A DNA stretch of 64,000 nt from Pyrococcus kukulkanii (GTDB lineage Archaea > Methanobacteriota_B > Thermococci > Thermococcales > Thermococcaceae), in contig NZ_CP010835.1 in the NCBI RefSeq assembly GCF_001577775.1, positions 372,001 to 436,000 on the forward strand. Reading direction: 5' to 3'. Below are positions 54,520 to 61,843 of this stretch, one piece after another; the first letter of the stretch is position 1, and each line of letters begins with the position of its first letter. The notes under the pieces were generated by a model. That model was given only the letters and a program-made list of their open reading frames with translations, did not search any database and had not been told where the DNA came from. Both the position numbers and the translations under genes were made by a program.

Positions 54520-54570
54520 CACTCAAAGAAAATCCAAAACTTTATGAATTTCCCCCAGGAGAGACCTCTG

Positions 54571-56543
54571 ATGAACCTGATAAGCTTCATAAACAGGCTC
54601 AAAGAGCTCGTTGAAATCGAAAGGGAAGCTGAAATAGAGGCCATGAGGTTAGAGATGAGAAGGTTAAGTGGAGCTGAGAGGGAGAAAGTTGGGAGGGCAA
54701 TCCTCAACCTGAACGGGAAGATCATTGGTGAGGAACTCGGCTACTTTCTCGTCAAGTACGGGAGGAGCAGGGAGATAAAGACCGAGATAAGCGTTGGCGA
54801 TTTAGTCGTTATAAGCAAGAGGGACCCCTTAAAGAGCGACCTCGTTGGCACTGTAGTAGAGAAGGGAAAGAGGTTCATTGTCGTTGCCTTAGAAACGGTT
54901 CCAGAATGGGCCCTAAGGGATGTGAGGCTTGATCTGTACGCCAACGACATAACTTTCAAAAGGTGGCTTGAAAACCTTGACAGGATAAAGAAGGCCGGCA
55001 AAAAAGCACTAGAGTTCTACCTAGGTTTAGATGAGCCCTCAAAGAGTGAGGAAGTGAAATTTGAGCCCTTTGATAGGAGCCTCAATCCTGCCCAAAGAAA
55101 GGCCATATCAAAAGCCCTGGGGAGTGAGGACTTCTTCTTAATTCACGGCCCCTTCGGGACTGGAAAGACCAGGGCATTGGTCGAGCTGATAAGGCAGGAG
55201 GTTAAGAGGGGAAACAAGGTTCTCGCAACAGCCGAAAGCAACGTTGCAGTTGACAATCTAGTAGAGAGGCTTGCAAGAGAGGGAGTTAAGATAGTTAGGG
55301 TCGGCCACCCGAGCAGGGTCTCGAGGGAGCTTCACGAGACGACCTTAGCTTACCTGATAACCCAGCACGAGCTGTACGGAGAGCTTAGAGAACTAAGGAT
55401 CATAGGACAGAGTCTAGCCGAAAAGAGGGATACTTACACCAAACCAACCCCAAAGTTCAGGAGGGGTTTGAGCGATTCGGAAATCCTAAAGCTCGCCGAG
55501 AGGAAGAGGGGGGCGAGGGGATTATCGGCGAGGCTCATCAGGGAGATGGCGGAGTGGATAAAGCTGAACAGGCAGGTTCAGAAGGCTTTTGAAGACGCTA
55601 GGAAGCTTGAGGAGAGGATAGCGAGGGACATAATCAGGGAAGCGGATGTAGTGCTGACGACTAACTCATCGGCGGCACTGGAATTTGTTGACTACGATAG
55701 TTATGATGTCGCAATAATAGACGAGGCAACCCAGGCAACGATCCCCAGCATCTTGATCCCACTGAATAAGGTCGAGAGGTTCATCTTAGCTGGAGATCAT
55801 AAACAACTACCGCCAACGATACTTAGCTTAGAGGCCCAGGAACTATCTAAAACTTTGTTTGAGGGATTAATTGAGAGGTACCCCTGGAAGAGCGAGATGC
55901 TTACGGTTCAGTACAGGATGAACGAGAGGATAATGGAGTTCCCGAGCAGGGAGTTCTATCAGGCAAAATCGTTGCCGATGAGAGGGTTAAAGGAATTACG
56001 CTGAGAGATCTTGGGGTTGATGCTAAGCTGAAAGATCCCTGGACTGAGGTTATAAAGCCGGAGAACGTTGTGGTGTTCATTGATACTTCAAAGATCGAGA
56101 ACAGGTGGGAGAGACAGAGGAGGGGAAGTGAAAGCAGGGAAAATCCTTTGGAGGCCAAGATAGTTACTGAAGTCGCGAAGAAACTTTTGGAGGCAGGAGT
56201 TAAGCCTGAATGGATCGGAGTTATAACTCCATATGATGATCAGAGGGATCTAATAAGCATGAGCGTTCCCGAGGATATAGAGGTTAAGACTGTAGATGGC
56301 TATCAGGGAAGGGAGAAAGAAGTAATAATCCTATCATTTGTCAGGTCAAATAAAGCTGGAGAGATAGGATTTCTTAAGGACTTGAGAAGGTTAAATGTCT
56401 CGCTGACGAGGGCCAAGAGGAAGCTGATAATGATTGGAGACTCAAGCACCCTAAGCAGTCATGAGACTTACAAAAGGCTGATAGAGCATGTAAGGGAAAA
56501 GGAGAAATTGATTGATGCAAGGGAATTAACTTGGCTTTTCTGA
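54571..56543 (+). pseudogene. UPF1-like superfamily 1B DNA/RNA helicase, one frameshift
   Basis: From ATG 54571 a frame gives FINRLKELVEIEREAEIEAM.., then Walker A GPFGTGKTRALVE, IIDEATQATIPS (DEAx) and AGDHKQLPPTI, ending prematurely at 56004. At the run of four A (55966-55969), five would join text ..FYQAKIVADERVKGITLRDLG.. into the second frame (GVITPYDDQRDLI, KTVDGYQGREKEVIILS, NVSLTRAKRKLIMIGD) to 56543, about 657 residues. It is the IGHMBP2/Upf1 helicase family. The lesion separates motif III from motifs IV-VI, so as written it would be inactive. Confidence 0.8.
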
Positions 56544-56666
56544 TATCTAGAGGAAGGTCAGCCTAATAAGTCCTAATTGAACAATAATTATGTGTTTTAA
56601 GTTAGTTTAAGTTAGTGTTGATCCAAAATATTTTAATTACTTAGGCTCGATAATCTATTGGTGCCC

Positions 56667-56879
56667 ATGGTGAAGACAATAACAATAATGATCCCAGATG
56701 ATATTGATGAAGAAACATTCAAGAGAATAGTTGAGGGGATAGCGAGAAGACTTATAATATCCAAGAGAAGATTAGAAGAACTTAATAAAATCCTTAAGAA
56801 TTCAGAGTTGACAGATGAGGATGCAATTGAACTTGGTAGGCTGGTCAAGAAAAGGGCGAGGGAAAAAGGTTGGTACTGA
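56667..56879 (+). CDS. VapB-like antitoxin
   Basis: From ATG 56667, with GGTG before it, the product is 70 residues: a strand (VKTITIMIPDDI) then helices to a basic C-terminus (GRLVKKRAREKGWY). The pattern fits small VapB-like antitoxins. It overlaps the following PIN gene by 10 bases. The 123 bases before it are AT-rich with repeated AAGTTAG; nothing else is visible there. Confidence 0.7.
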   Translation: MVKTITIMIPDDIDEETFKRIVEGIARRLIISKRRLEELNKILKNSELTDEDAIELGRLVKKRAREKGWY

Positions 56880-57298
56880 GGCTTGTAGTTGACACCAATG
56901 TTCTATTTTCGATCTTTAAAAGAGATAGTGGAACTCGTAAGATTATATATGAAAACATCTTCTACATTGAACTACATTCGCCAATTTTTGCAATTTGGGA
57001 AATGAAAGAGATAAAAGATGAGATAATTAAAAAGGCTAAGATAACTGAGGAAGAGTTTTATAAGATTTTAGAAGAGATCAGCGAAATAGTTTCGTTGTGG
57101 CCAATAGAGAAATATATCGATTTTCTTTCCATTGCTGAAGAGATAACCCCAGATCCAGATGATATCCCTTTCGTTGCCCTTGCTCTAAAGCTTAACGCCT
57201 ACCTATGGACCAATGATAAGCGTTTAAAGGAAATAAAAGAAATCAAAGTCATAACAACTCCAGAGCTCGTCAGGCTTCTTAATACAGTTACCTTTTAG
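56870..57298 (+). CDS. PIN-domain nuclease, VapC-like
   Basis: A 142-residue protein with LRLVVDTNVLFSIF (first Asp), a Glu in AIWEMKEIKDEI, and DPDDIPFVALALKLNAYLWTNDKRL (last acidic pair). It pairs with the overlapping antitoxin gene. The start is uncertain (TTG 56870 is the only one near the front of the domain). It converges on the four-gene cassette, overlapping its last gene by 11 bases. Confidence 0.8.
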   Translation: MVLRLVVDTNVLFSIFKRDSGTRKIIYENIFYIELHSPIFAIWEMKEIKDEIIKKAKITEEEFYKILEEISEIVSLWPIEKYIDFLSIAEEITPDPDDIPFVALALKLNAYLWTNDKRLKEIKEIKVITTPELVRLLNTVTF

Positions 57299-58955
57299 AT
57301 CTATCAACCCCCGACTTGCCGACTATGGAAATTAGCTCTTTCCTGTCTATGTCAATTGTGAAAACCTTAACTCTATCTCCGTATCGTTTTTTCACATATT
57401 TTGCAAATTCAACTAGCTCTTTCCTTAATAACATCGCTGGGGATGGAGGAATAACTATCCATAAGTTGAGCCCATATTCGAGCCTTGTTTCGATGTCATG
57501 TCTCAACTTTAATAGGGGCACTGGTTCCCCATATAGAGTCTCGACTTCTATTGCGAGGTTTTGGGAACTAACGTAGACATCAAGTCTAATATTCCCCAGG
57601 GAGAATTCTGTCTCTATGCTCCTTTTTCCCTTTTCCAAGTCCTTAAATGGTATCTCGAGTTTGTTGTGCAAGTATTCAACCACAAATGCCTTCAGCGCGT
57701 AGTGAGTTATGCTCTCTCCCTCACTGCCCTCAACGTACAGTGGAGTAGGTATAAGCTTGTCCCCTATCTTTATCGTTCTCGTGTAATGGGCTATGAACTC
57801 TCTGAATCTGTCCTCGAGAAAGACTGCCAGCTTATCTATTGAGGTATCTGGTAAATCATAACTGAAACTTCCCCAAAATCTACTCAATAATTCAGAAAGT
57901 TGATCATGATTTTCCTGTGTGGGTTTAATTTCAATTGGCTTTTGTGTGATGTACATCCGTTTATGTTCCTCCAAATGCAACTCGGTTTCTAAAATCTCCG
58001 TTCTTACGAAATTTAAAAAATCTTCCTTTCCATAAAACACGAGAAAGCCAAATTCCTGGGAAAACAGCTCTCTAAGTTTTTCTTTTAGGATAGCCACCTC
58101 ATTATTCTTAAGTTCATTGTCTTTCCCAGTACCCTCAATTACTGTTATTGACCCTCCAGCTCTTACCATCTTGAGCCTTCTTTCTTTATCTGGTAACATA
58201 ATATGGTAGGCCTCTGGAAGCCCACCTACACGAATCCTGTAGAGCTCCCTAAGAACACGCTTCAGGAATTCTATATAGCTTAACTTCCTATTTTCCGGCT
58301 TCTTGGCGAATATGATGACTGGTCCTTCTGATGTAAACGAGAAACTCGTTCCAAAGGCCTCCTCAAAGAAGTCTTTCTCTGGAATTATCTCAGGAGGTTT
58401 ACCCTCTGGGTGAGCGACAGAAACAAGAGGTAGATGTGGGGATATTACAAATTCACGTGCTTGAACCTCCCCAGGAGTTAAGAAGACAGGCTGAGCTGGT
58501 AAGAGGAGGGACATGAAATCAGCTTTGTATTTCGGAAGGACGATGTCTTTCACTACAAGCGCTTCAATCTCATCAACGTCCTCAAACGTTATCTTGGGTT
58601 CTCTGCTCGCTATAATACCCAAAAGCTTAGAGGCTATCGGAGCCTTAATTTCCCTCTCAATGTCTAAAATCTTGATTTCGGACATTTCAAGGAATGTTGG
58701 TTTAGCTGGAACCACGTAGCTTGTATGAGCTCTCTGTCTGACTTTTTGAATTCCCGTTATTATCTGGCTTTCAATTTTATCGGGAGAAAGGAAGTCTGGC
58801 AAAAGGAGAAGGACTTCAATGACCTTTTTCTTCTTCCCGCTCTTTGATGGCTTCTTGACTGATATAGTTGGAATTTTTCCAGCTCTCTTTGTTGCTATTA
58901 TGAGCTCATCATCTTCAATAACTGCTTCAAGCTTACTTTTCAACCTCTCTCCCAT
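57288..58955 (-). CDS. Cassette gene D: large protein with PD-(D/E)XK-like C-terminal domain
   Basis: A 555-residue protein, not recognised in its first ~440 residues, which are Lys/Glu-rich and beta-helical mixed. Residues about 443-555 look like a restriction-endonuclease-like core: a helix with Glu448, strand RLDVYV (Asp459), strand LAIEVET (Glu470, Glu472), then a helix with basic residues (LRHDIETRLEYG) and strand LWIVIPPS. The typical Lys of ExK is Glu here, so activity is uncertain. The ATG overlaps gene C by 16 bases. Confidence 0.6.
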   Translation of the reverse strand: MGERLKSKLEAVIEDDELIIATKRAGKIPTISVKKPSKSGKKKKVIEVLLLLPDFLSPDKIESQIITGIQKVRQRAHTSYVVPAKPTFLEMSEIKILDIEREIKAPIASKLLGIIASREPKITFEDVDEIEALVVKDIVLPKYKADFMSLLLPAQPVFLTPGEVQAREFVISPHLPLVSVAHPEGKPPEIIPEKDFFEEAFGTSFSFTSEGPVIIFAKKPENRKLSYIEFLKRVLRELYRIRVGGLPEAYHIMLPDKERRLKMVRAGGSITVIEGTGKDNELKNNEVAILKEKLRELFSQEFGFLVFYGKEDFLNFVRTEILETELHLEEHKRMYITQKPIEIKPTQENHDQLSELLSRFWGSFSYDLPDTSIDKLAVFLEDRFREFIAHYTRTIKIGDKLIPTPLYVEGSEGESITHYALKAFVVEYLHNKLEIPFKDLEKGKRSIETEFSLGNIRLDVYVSSQNLAIEVETLYGEPVPLLKLRHDIETRLEYGLNLWIVIPPSPAMLLRKELVEFAKYVKKRYGDRVKVFTIDIDRKELISIVGKSGVDRSKR

Positions 58956-60079
58956 CCCAGGATCACCTGATATCCAAACTCTTTTTCCGACTTTGGCTCA
59001 ATGTACGCGAACCCGAAAAATGTCAGTGGGGCTATAAAGGCTATGAACTCGGTGTATCCAACAGTTTCATAGTACAACTTAATGTCCCCGCCTTCAATTT
59101 TTGCACTGTCATATTTTGAGACTTTAAAGGGCTCCTCAACTTTTAGGCCCAGGAAGTCCTTCTCTGAAGCCCAACCTAACCTGTTAAGGACTTCCTCGAA
59201 GTACTCAAGTGCAATGCTTCCTTTTATAGTCTCGGAGTAGTGCTGAAGATACTTGTTGAATTCATCATCCACTGCAAAGAACTTCCTAAGGCCCTGAATT
59301 TGGAACAGCTTGTAGCAGTTGAGGACTATGTTTCTTATAAGCCACCCTGGGGAGATCCTATCTAAACCGACTATTGACCTCCTCTCTCTTTCTCCTGGGT
59401 GTGGGAGATCGGGAAATATCAGGTTGCTAATTCTTACTCCATATTTTCCGAGGATTCTCTTCGTTTCCTCTTCAAACAACTTTTCATATTGCTTCTCAAG
59501 GTAAAACCTTGGCGTTGATTGAATGGAAAGTACGAAGAAAGATAAAGGATTGTAGAGAGGTAAAAGCTTTTTGGCAGATTTTAGTAACTCCCTGACTTTC
59601 TCAACGGCATCCGTGGACTTAGTGATTTCAACTTTGTTAATATCTGGTAGGCTCTTACCTACTTGAGGAGAGAGAAGTTGTATGTCTTTTCTAATTTTTC
59701 CCAGGAGGCTTATAAACTCGGTTTCTTCTCTTCTAACCTTGATGTCTGAGCTTGCAACATCTAAGGATAGCCCTTCCTTGAGCCGAGAAGTTACCTTCTT
59801 TGTATCTTCCTCACTAAGCCCAAATCCTAGGATTTCACGATAAAATCTTGCAAGGGCATTTTCTGGAAAGCTACCATCTTCCCTAAGACCCCCAAAGAGT
59901 ACCTCCTCCCAGATTTTGCTTTCTTGTATTAATTCCCCTACAAATTTGTCTCCAGCTTTCTCAAAAAGACTTTTTCGTAGCTTTAAGACTTCTTCTATCC
60001 GAACAAAAAGGTTAATTATTTGGTTGTAGTATTCTTCCCAAGATTTTTCGTCATAATACTTAATCATTTCCTCCAGCAT
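58940..60079 (-). CDS. Cassette gene C: helical protein of unknown family
   Basis: From ATG 60079 (MLEEMIKYYDEKSW) the product is 379 residues, mostly predicted helix with many charged residues. The C-terminal 60 residues look beta-rich (IEGGDIKLYYETVGYTEFIAFIAPLTFFGFAYIEPKS). No known motif. It overlaps gene B by 20 bases and gene D by 16, so the four genes are translated as one operon. Confidence 0.65.
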   Translation of the reverse strand: MLEEMIKYYDEKSWEEYYNQIINLFVRIEEVLKLRKSLFEKAGDKFVGELIQESKIWEEVLFGGLREDGSFPENALARFYREILGFGLSEEDTKKVTSRLKEGLSLDVASSDIKVRREETEFISLLGKIRKDIQLLSPQVGKSLPDINKVEITKSTDAVEKVRELLKSAKKLLPLYNPLSFFVLSIQSTPRFYLEKQYEKLFEEETKRILGKYGVRISNLIFPDLPHPGERERRSIVGLDRISPGWLIRNIVLNCYKLFQIQGLRKFFAVDDEFNKYLQHYSETIKGSIALEYFEEVLNRLGWASEKDFLGLKVEEPFKVSKYDSAKIEGGDIKLYYETVGYTEFIAFIAPLTFFGFAYIEPKSEKEFGYQVILGWERG

Positions 60080-60995
60080 TTTCCTCCCTCCACGAAAGGA
60101 TCGTTCTAACACGTTTAACGAGCTCTGGAGGAATATCCTTTATTATCTCAGGATTATAAGGGGCGGTTCTCCATATTTCTAATGCGAATGGTGGAATCAC
60201 ATACTTATACCACGAATGCTTTCTACTACTTCCCCATCCCTCAGCCAGTAATCCTGCAGCTATTAATTCATCAGCCGAAAATCCAAGAGAAACATCGAAA
60301 GTCTGTAGTATTATATTGACTACAGGAGAGTAATACCCAGATAATGCTTGGTCAAATATCTTAAGTGTCCTACTTTTGATAAATTTATAGTCCATGGAAA
60401 TAACCAACAATGCAAATTTTCCATTAAGAGATAGATAATTCAAAGACTGGTTTACTTTCTTCTCAAAGTATTCTCTAACTTCTCTAATATTCCTTAAAAG
60501 GTCATCAGTGGCTCTTCCCATAGCAGATTTAGCAATTTCTTCAATATTATAGGATAAACTGCCATTCTTAGCATTTTTAATATCTTGCTCGAGCTCTTTT
60601 AATAACTTCTGTAAGGAAGCCTCTATATACTGTTTTTCTATTATATTCTTTGGTTTGACGTTCCTCATTACATAATCATAGGCATGACTAAGAACTTTGC
60701 CTTCTGGAACTCTTTGGAGATAGTTATTAATAACTCCCTTAAAATATCCTTCCTTAATTATTTCATTCCTAAACTCCAGCTCATAACATTTGCCTTCTCG
60801 GTAGCATGTTAGTTCAAATATCTTCATGATGTCATATCCAATGCCAATGTTAGTAAAGAGCCACAAACCTAAGAGTTCCTTGTATTTTCTCTGTTCTACA
60901 AACTCTTTGATAAGAAATTCCCTGTAGCTGTCGGCTAAACTTTCTCTAACAGCCTCTCGAAATTTATTCTTAACAATTCTTTCAACATCACTCAT
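60060..60995 (-). CDS. Cassette gene B: helical protein of unknown family
   Basis: A 311-residue product with predominantly helical content and several Cys (FELTCYREGKCYEL near residue 60). There is no signal peptide or clear membrane helix. The ATG overlaps the TGA of gene A (ATGA). It is the most AT-rich of the four genes. I recognise no family; a role as structural or regulatory subunit for A or D is only an inference from the coupling. Confidence 0.6.
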   Translation of the reverse strand: MSDVERIVKNKFREAVRESLADSYREFLIKEFVEQRKYKELLGLWLFTNIGIGYDIMKIFELTCYREGKCYELEFRNEIIKEGYFKGVINNYLQRVPEGKVLSHAYDYVMRNVKPKNIIEKQYIEASLQKLLKELEQDIKNAKNGSLSYNIEEIAKSAMGRATDDLLRNIREVREYFEKKVNQSLNYLSLNGKFALLVISMDYKFIKSRTLKIFDQALSGYYSPVVNIILQTFDVSLGFSADELIAAGLLAEGWGSSRKHSWYKYVIPPFALEIWRTAPYNPEIIKDIPPELVKRVRTILSWREENAGGND

Positions 60996-61798
60996 TTCTC
61001 TTCCACCTCCCTTTTGAGCATCTCGATAAGTCCTTCCTCAACCCTATCCTCTCCAACAACGTCGCAAAGAAACATTAGCTCTCTAATCAGCTCTTTTCTC
61101 TTCCTCACCTGTTCTTTAAACTCTTTGAGGGCCTCTTCCTTTATTGGCCCAAGGGCCACCTTCCCATCTTCAACCCTCATCAGCCAGCTTTCCCCAACGA
61201 ATGGCCCAACCGCAGGATCAACTTCACTAACCATGTCTATTATAAAGGTAGACAGTAAGCCCCAGTTCTGCTCGCTGTCTGGAGAGTATCCCAGGAGCCT
61301 AAGCAGGAGCATGCCCCCAGTTATTGAACCAGAACCAATTATGGCAAACCCTGGGGTATCGTGAACAGGTTCAGCTAATCCTCTACTGTCGAAATGATAT
61401 ATCGAGGCCTTACCTTCGGGATCAACACTTGCCAGTATCATGTTGAAATTGATGTCAATCCCCATGCTCCTGAGCTCTCTAAATCTCGAAATTAGTTGGT
61501 TCTCAACTTCTCTCACAATATAAGAGAATTCTCTTTGGCTTGGTGTTTCATCTTTGTTTTTCATGAACTCTTCTACAACTGCATCAACAACAGAGTAACC
61601 GTATTTAACAAGGGCGGCATCCCCAGACCCGCCGGCGATGCCCACGGGTATGTCCTTTTCTTTAACCCCTACTGGATGAATTTTCTTTGCTTCATAGGTT
61701 ATTGGCCCATATGTGACCCTTGAATCGGAAGCCATAAGCACGGCTTCCTGCTCCCTCTCTCTATTCCATAACCACTTTAGTGCAAGAACGAGAGTCAC
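60992..61798 (-). CDS. Cassette gene A: proteasome-beta-like Ntn hydrolase
   Basis: From GTG 61798 the product is 268 residues and begins M-T-L-V-L-A-L-K-W. Removal of Met would expose Thr1, as in 20S beta subunits. Further proteasome-like marks, numbered from that Thr: Asp24 in LMASDSRVTYG (equivalent of Asp17), Lys37 or 38 in YEAKKI (equivalent of Lys33), GIAGGSGDAALV, and GSGSITGGML (Ser129 region). The last DxxSG is DPAVG, with Val for Ser. GGTGAT four bases ahead supports this start; TTG 61810 is open but lacks a site. It is not a standard archaeal psmA or psmB. Confidence 0.7.
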   Translation of the reverse strand: MTLVLALKWLWNREREQEAVLMASDSRVTYGPITYEAKKIHPVGVKEKDIPVGIAGGSGDAALVKYGYSVVDAVVEEFMKNKDETPSQREFSYIVREVENQLISRFRELRSMGIDINFNMILASVDPEGKASIYHFDSRGLAEPVHDTPGFAIIGSGSITGGMLLLRLLGYSPDSEQNWGLLSTFIIDMVSEVDPAVGPFVGESWLMRVEDGKVALGPIKEEALKEFKEQVRKRKELIRELMFLCDVVGEDRVEEGLIEMLKREVEEK

Positions 61799-61830
61799 AT
61801 ATATCACCAAGTAACAATTTAAGGTTAAGG

Positions 61831-61843
61831 AGTTTTAAAGTTT
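61831..61843 (-). promoter_or_regulatory. TATA element of the four-gene cassette
   Basis: The reverse strand reads AAACTTTAAAACT here, about 35 bases before GTG 61798. TTTAAA is a good archaeal TATA core and would give a leader of about 10 bases. Located between pmm and gene A, it lets the cassette be expressed on its own. Confidence 0.5.

Follow-up and report, generated by a model that had tools for sequence, protein, structure and literature searches.

The window examined here, a stretch of 64,000 nucleotides of Pyrococcus kukulkanii (RefSeq assembly GCF_001577775.1, contig NZ_CP010835.1, positions 372,001 to 436,000 of the forward strand), carries at its positions 57288-61798, on the minus strand, an operon of four overlapping genes, A to D. 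Gene A encodes a proteasome-like N-terminal nucleophile (Ntn) hydrolase, and gene D a protein ending in a PD-(D/E)XK-like domain. As judged from the gene sequences and their arrangement, C-D forms a separate two-gene module that recurs in Thermococcales and Thermoproteota, in most cases without A, and the clustering of A with C-D is not due to chance. With somewhat less than even confidence, we favor the reading that A-B-C-D is a protease-coupled version of this widespread archaeal nuclease-like module, a protease-controlled nuclease whose most likely role would be defense or abortive infection. The genes and signals of the operon, in window coordinates, are as follows.

60992..61798, minus strand: gene A, proteasome-like Ntn hydrolase of 268 aa starting M-T-L; PF00227 match above the cut-off
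60060..60995, minus strand: gene B, 311 aa, of no known family; in Thermococcales only
58940..60079, minus strand: gene C, 379 aa, constant partner of D; predicted fold without a match
57288..58955, minus strand: gene D, 555 aa; tail, P-loop-like and PD-(D/E)XK-like domains
61803..61808, minus strand: ribosome-binding site of A, GGTGAT, read from the sequence
61833..61839, minus strand: TATA-like box of the operon, TTTAAAA; a similar box lies upstream of five orthologs

A preliminary description of this DNA had proposed a single operon with its own TATA element, and its coordinates, common strand and overlaps of 4, 20 and 16 bases were exact on re-reading. Gene A starts with GTG at 61798, with GGTGAT directly upstream followed further out by the TTTAAAA box, and a TTAAA-type box lies at about the same distance upstream in all five orthologs compared. 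The same description had treated the four genes as one set and overlooked that the C-D pair is the core unit, usually found without A and B.

Recurrence of C-D and its linkage with A

The order A-B-C-D is kept in four Thermococcus-type genomes of the sister genus, with D broken in one, and A-C-D occurs in a second Pyrococcus genome. In G041 (L012 5824-7486), D lies in three open reading frames (ORFs), and A, B and C are still open. Among 115 Thermococcia genomes, A was found in six, and it adjoins D in every one of them. Pairs of C and D without A are present in further Thermococcia and in many Thermoproteota. D occurs in 38 of the 397 sampled Thermoproteota genomes, and some relatives have D without C (L110-L112). 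Many of the Thermoproteota and Thermococcia entries are draft genomes, and absences are soft.

The linkage of A and D is seen again in Thermoproteota, where 11 of 398 genomes have A, in several cases as fragments. Full-length A with D nearby occurs in G249 (ATPase-C'-C-D-A), G313 (C'-D-A) and G221 (A-x-x-D). In G116, A is broken and a fragment of D comes after it, and the G115 contig, with a full-length A, is too short to judge D linkage. By our own estimate, the chance of finding D within 10 kb in a 1.8-Mb genome is about 0.6% per genome, so linkage in three of the six full-length A genes of Thermoproteota is very unlikely to be accidental. The gene orders differ from those of Thermococcales, and these loci are therefore not one inherited block.

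A-linked members fall into separate clades of the D tree, with a comparable division in the C tree. A single clade of the seven A-linked D proteins was rejected (approximately unbiased test, p-AU 7e-9) in a test that omitted six long-branched rows, including the D of G221, and whose group was defined by A linkage after the C and D trees had been seen. The A proteins of those same operons are close relatives. A thus has partners from different C-D lineages. It either moved between C-D lineages or was lost many times, and either course implies that A works with C-D. Together, the comparisons show that C and D are inherited as a pair and that A has repeatedly been joined to them with its catalytic residues intact. 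It is highly improbable that A and C-D are unrelated accessory genes that merely share insertion sites. Both are accessory and some A genes have no D nearby, but the genes overlap in one operon kept in six genomes, the association is rebuilt in other orders in a second phylum, and separate D clades are joined to close relatives of A.

Remnants of the D C-terminus, 93% and 86% identical to the window D, lie between the phosphoglucomutase-like gene (pgm) and an ATPase gene in G026 (L041 8968-9405) and G031 (L139 13431-13745, G031:C2), respectively, indicating that the operon was once at that site in sister genomes and was then lost. Amino acid identity between the window and the sister-genus orthologs is about 76% for A, 28-37% for B (four orthologs), 46-50% for C and 39-43% for D; ordinary genes of the window and one such genome are 72-83% identical. 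The fast change of B, C and D but not of A fits a conflict role, although it is no proof of one.

Other arrangements were seen at C-D loci. G038 (L035 8720-12064) has a second C-D pair inside a cluster syntenic with 46.7-54.4 kb of the window, where the window has no C-D. In G031 (L036 9276-10837), a C-D pair converges on a toxin-antitoxin-like pair formed by a DUF4411 gene and an HTH-M78 metallopeptidase gene. In G277 (L104 6831-11538), the gene directly after C-D encodes a GHKL-type ATPase of 958 aa that includes a NOV_C domain. Several Thermoproteota loci (L099, L100, L103, L107, L113) have a winged-helix-type protein, about 280-340 aa long, encoded near C-D. The ATPase of L059 was considered as a constant partner; ATPase_2-type genes lie near several C-D loci but are abundant in archaea, and this candidate was given no weight.

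Gene A is a proteasome-like hydrolase outside the core proteasome

A matched PF00227 with 28.6 bits (28.8 bits in the genome search; cut-off, 22.4). Its score against NCBIfam TIGR03634, the psmB equivalog model, was 17.4 bits, far under the cut-off of 224, and the genome carries three ordinary proteasome genes away from the operon. A shares the fold family and catalytic residues of the archaeal 20S proteasome beta subunit (psmB) while lying outside that family, in agreement with its earlier designation as proteasome-like but non-core. In an alignment of 11 homologs from two phyla, T2, D25, K39, G57, G59 and D188 were invariant. Assigned by motif position, T2, D25, K39 and G57 would be the equivalents of Thr1, Asp17, Lys33 and Gly47. 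The proteasome mechanism requires an N-terminal Thr, which removal of Met from A would expose, and all Thermococcales A orthologs begin M-T-L.

Twenty-two families of proteasome homologs were described in 2021, with no genomic context suggesting function (Fuchs, Alva and Lupas 2021, PMC8665760). The same work reports ACC, an archaeal proteasome homolog with coiled coil that is restricted to archaea, with a narrow distribution in Euryarchaeota and Crenarchaeota. A likely belongs to the ACC group, which it fits by distribution: it was found in Thermococcia and Thermoproteota, and a genome-wide scan with A, which reaches close relatives only, returned archaea only. ACC has the proteasome fold with the Thr1/Asp/Lys residues and lacks a propeptide, features that A would share, and A has a helical-looking C-terminus, with charged, helix-like residues past position ~218 of the alignment. 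In contrast to the homologs of that study, for which the authors saw no suggestive context, A has the C-D pair as a new context. A weak A match in G035 proved to be a chance match in another frame, and no A-D gene is present there.

Domains of D

The architecture of D was read from an AlphaFold model, with confidence given as the predicted local distance difference test (pLDDT).

58377..58955, minus strand: D residues 1-193, disordered tail; pLDDT under 50
57756..58358, minus strand: D residues 200-400, P-loop/AAA-like domain with no visible Walker A; Foldseek AAA matches
57321..57746, minus strand: D residues 404-545, PD-(D/E)XK-like domain; alpha-beta3-alpha-beta topology
57540..57581, minus strand: D459...E470-x-E472 motif, invariant in 15 homologs

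In the predicted structure, the core of the C-terminal domain consists of H416-431, E447-453, E456-462, E467-471, H480-492 and E497-501 (H, helix; E, strand), mostly at high confidence. D459, E470, E472 and K483, the last in the next helix, are invariant among D proteins that are otherwise 15-40% identical, and the G221 homolog has D...DxK (DVK) at the place of the motif. When whole D was submitted to Foldseek, most matches were AAA proteins (probability up to 0.97, with low TM-scores), and no restriction-endonuclease match was among the matches listed. The PD-(D/E)XK assignment therefore comes from topology and motif and not from the fold search; these two features back the restriction-endonuclease-like domain proposed earlier. 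D resembles the PD-(D/E)XK nuclease superfamily in core topology and probably in motif positions. It differs in its ExE variant, in the fusion to a P-loop-like domain and a disordered tail, and in matching no Pfam, NCBIfam or PADLOC model. The hPxh motif occurs in the D tails across the family about twice as often as expected (142 observed, 71 expected in shuffles).

These features bear on whether D is a nuclease. If it were instead a structural or DNA-binding scaffold, A-D would work as a proteolytic complex, with B, C and D choosing the substrates. The ExE form of the motif in most members, the P-loop-like domain without Walker A and the long, multivalent-looking tail would suit such a role. 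We consider it improbable, given that the aspartate, both glutamates and the downstream lysine are invariant among such divergent proteins and that one member has the canonical DxK.

The Halorussus pelagicus plasmid NZ_CP035121.1 encodes a protein of 1403 aa that has a D-like domain at its end (L117 4812-9023). Its gene follows one with a PLD/NgoFVII-type match, and a gene for an HNH endonuclease is nearby.

Genes B and C

As the preliminary description had noted for B and C, no family in Pfam or NCBIfam was found for B, C or D, and the homologs of C and D tested likewise had no Pfam or NCBIfam match and weak, partial PADLOC matches. PADLOC 2023 models gave only weak partial matches to A-D and their homologs. 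The best of these, Old with B, was short and low-scoring (5.9e-4, 16.7 bits, 98 residues) and was discarded. The C model was confident (pLDDT 90; predicted template modeling score, pTM, 0.90), and its fold had no match in PDB (best E 0.88) or among viral models (best E 0.17). B was not found outside Thermococcales and is also absent from G031; it appears to be an optional, fast-evolving accessory. The idea that B is a diverged C was ruled out by profile comparison (0.3% probability).

A second protease-like partner of C-D

One C-D lineage of Thermoproteota has, in place of A, a gene of about 294 codons with a conserved HE(L/V)CHH...DEGLC signature; in G479 and G370 this gene and the start of C share 4 bases, and a diverged copy lies more loosely near the C-D of G202. 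The signature is of a zinc metallopeptidase type, making this a putative protease, and the gene had no Pfam model match. The family members are as follows.

L108 2550-3437: HExxH...E family member
L113 4000-4884: HExxH...E family member
L099 14776-15651: HExxH...E family member

C-D may be an immune or conflict system of archaea that has not been described before. C would contribute a new fold and D, with its P-loop-like domain, a new branch of the PD-(D/E)XK proteins, and lineages would swap the controlling protease (proteasome-like Ntn hydrolase or HExxH metallopeptidase). We regard this proposal, taken as a whole, as less likely than not. A literature search found no paper describing the operon or the C-D pair.

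Genomic context

56658..57298, plus strand: VapBC-type pair (PIN toxin, 56870-57298), convergent with D; a neighbor, probably outside the module

The preliminary description had drawn a defense-island argument from this adjoining toxin-antitoxin pair. The toxin is supported by a PF10130 match (4.8e-21), and the antitoxin is plausible by position only. The argument itself is weak, since the operon of Thermococcus-type genomes lies between metabolic genes. What had been overlooked is that the site of the operon is variable and that the cas genes found there are better evidence of defense than VapBC. In Pyrococcus, the interval from the phosphoglucomutase-like gene to a helicase gene is empty in G029 and contains a single ATPase gene in G025; G026 and G031 each have an ATPase gene there together with a remnant of D, and the window has the operon with VapBC. 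The pgm-adjacent site of G027 (L135 2929-9354) holds cas3, cas7 and an ATPase gene. In G221, cas7 and a CRISPR array of 24-base repeats are within a few kb of A-D, and A of G377 lies near RAMP genes. Proximity to defense genes, which the preliminary description had proposed to check, is thus real for some members and absent for others, the Thermococcus-type genomes among them. Within the window, a frameshift near 55990 divides a helicase-like gene (54544-56543) into two ORFs, one of 486 and one of 157 codons; the same gene is intact in sister genomes, with about 655-663 codons.

Lon turns over bacterial antitoxins. By analogy, C-D could be an addiction module with D as toxin and C as antitoxin, C being turned over by the protease A; the target would be the cell itself, and the outcome self-maintenance or stress dormancy and not a dedicated antiviral response. 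The compact and sporadic C-D pair, its remnants, a broken D beside an intact C, proteolysis as a recurring partner and the adjoining VapBC pair agree with this. The genes are large for a toxin-antitoxin system (380 and 555 aa), and most C-D pairs have no linked protease; we regard this alternative as unlikely.

The tRNA 2-thiouridine synthetase gene ttuA is a neighbor of C-D, or of D alone, in two phyla (L034, L037 and L044 in Thermococcia; L110-L112 in Thermoproteota), which may be chance or a functional hint. This neighborhood, like the stable metabolic surroundings in Thermococcus-type genomes, would suit housekeeping quality control, with C-D as a tRNA- or translation-linked complex whose PD-(D/E)XK-like domain binds or processes nucleic acid and whose products A clears. 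Such a role is fairly improbable in view of the sporadic occurrence, the losses, the fast divergence of B-D and the CRISPR neighbors of some members.

A proposed protease-controlled nuclease

In the protease-controlled nuclease that we favor, C and D would assemble into a complex that keeps the nuclease inactive. Like other proteasome-type proteases, A would attack segments that are unfolded or exposed. On a trigger, A might cut the disordered tail of D or degrade C, freeing the nuclease D to attack the DNA of an invader or of the cell itself. B would perhaps be a sensor or adaptor.

There is precedent in bacteria, whose immune systems have repeatedly acquired protease-activated pro-nucleases, with pairs of this type in Hachiman, AVAST and canu loci (Tuck et al. 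2025, PMC12799240). In those pairs, as in A-D, protease and nuclease genes are recurrently joined, and different protease families go with related nucleases. They differ in that the bacterial pairs combine a trypsin-like or caspase protease with a nuclease of the metallo-beta-lactamase (MBL) fold, whereas here an archaeal Ntn hydrolase (or HExxH protein) goes with a PD-(D/E)XK-like protein and C. A-D is not a member of those pairs and shares no common family with them, although by analogy it may work comparably.

Several observations weigh against this reading. Most C-D pairs have no protease gene alongside; they lack A but still have long D tails, so the tail cannot exist solely as a substrate of A. 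Full-length A genes of G318 and G158 have no D nearby. The lysine position of the motif is glutamate in most D proteins. The metalloprotease-like partner comes from one gene lineage without a Pfam match, and its G479 and G370 copies are nearly identical, leaving two independent sequences at most. The operon of Thermococcus-type genomes keeps a stable position between aldo/keto-reductase-like and aldehyde-ferredoxin-oxidoreductase-like genes (names from our reading of the sequences). Finally, searches of viral contigs found no relatives of A, C or D, and phage records yielded no relative of D. An origin from phages or plasmids was rejected, the Halorussus plasmid being the one plasmid match. 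Of the protease-controlled defense or stress module first proposed, the functional unit is real, and it is read most economically as a nuclease under protease control; the defense-island support from the toxin-antitoxin pair is weak.

The C-D pair represents an unannotated gene family in about a tenth of the sampled Thermoproteota, and for one archaeal orphan proteasome homolog there is now a partner that is conserved, open to testing and found repeatedly in two archaeal phyla. If the proposed reading of C-D is true, A would be the first proteasome homolog known with a dedicated nuclease effector. If A controls D, protease-gated nucleases would be present in archaea as well as bacteria and would involve the proteasome fold in addition to trypsin and caspase; the operon would also provide the first functional handle on orphan proteasome homologs.

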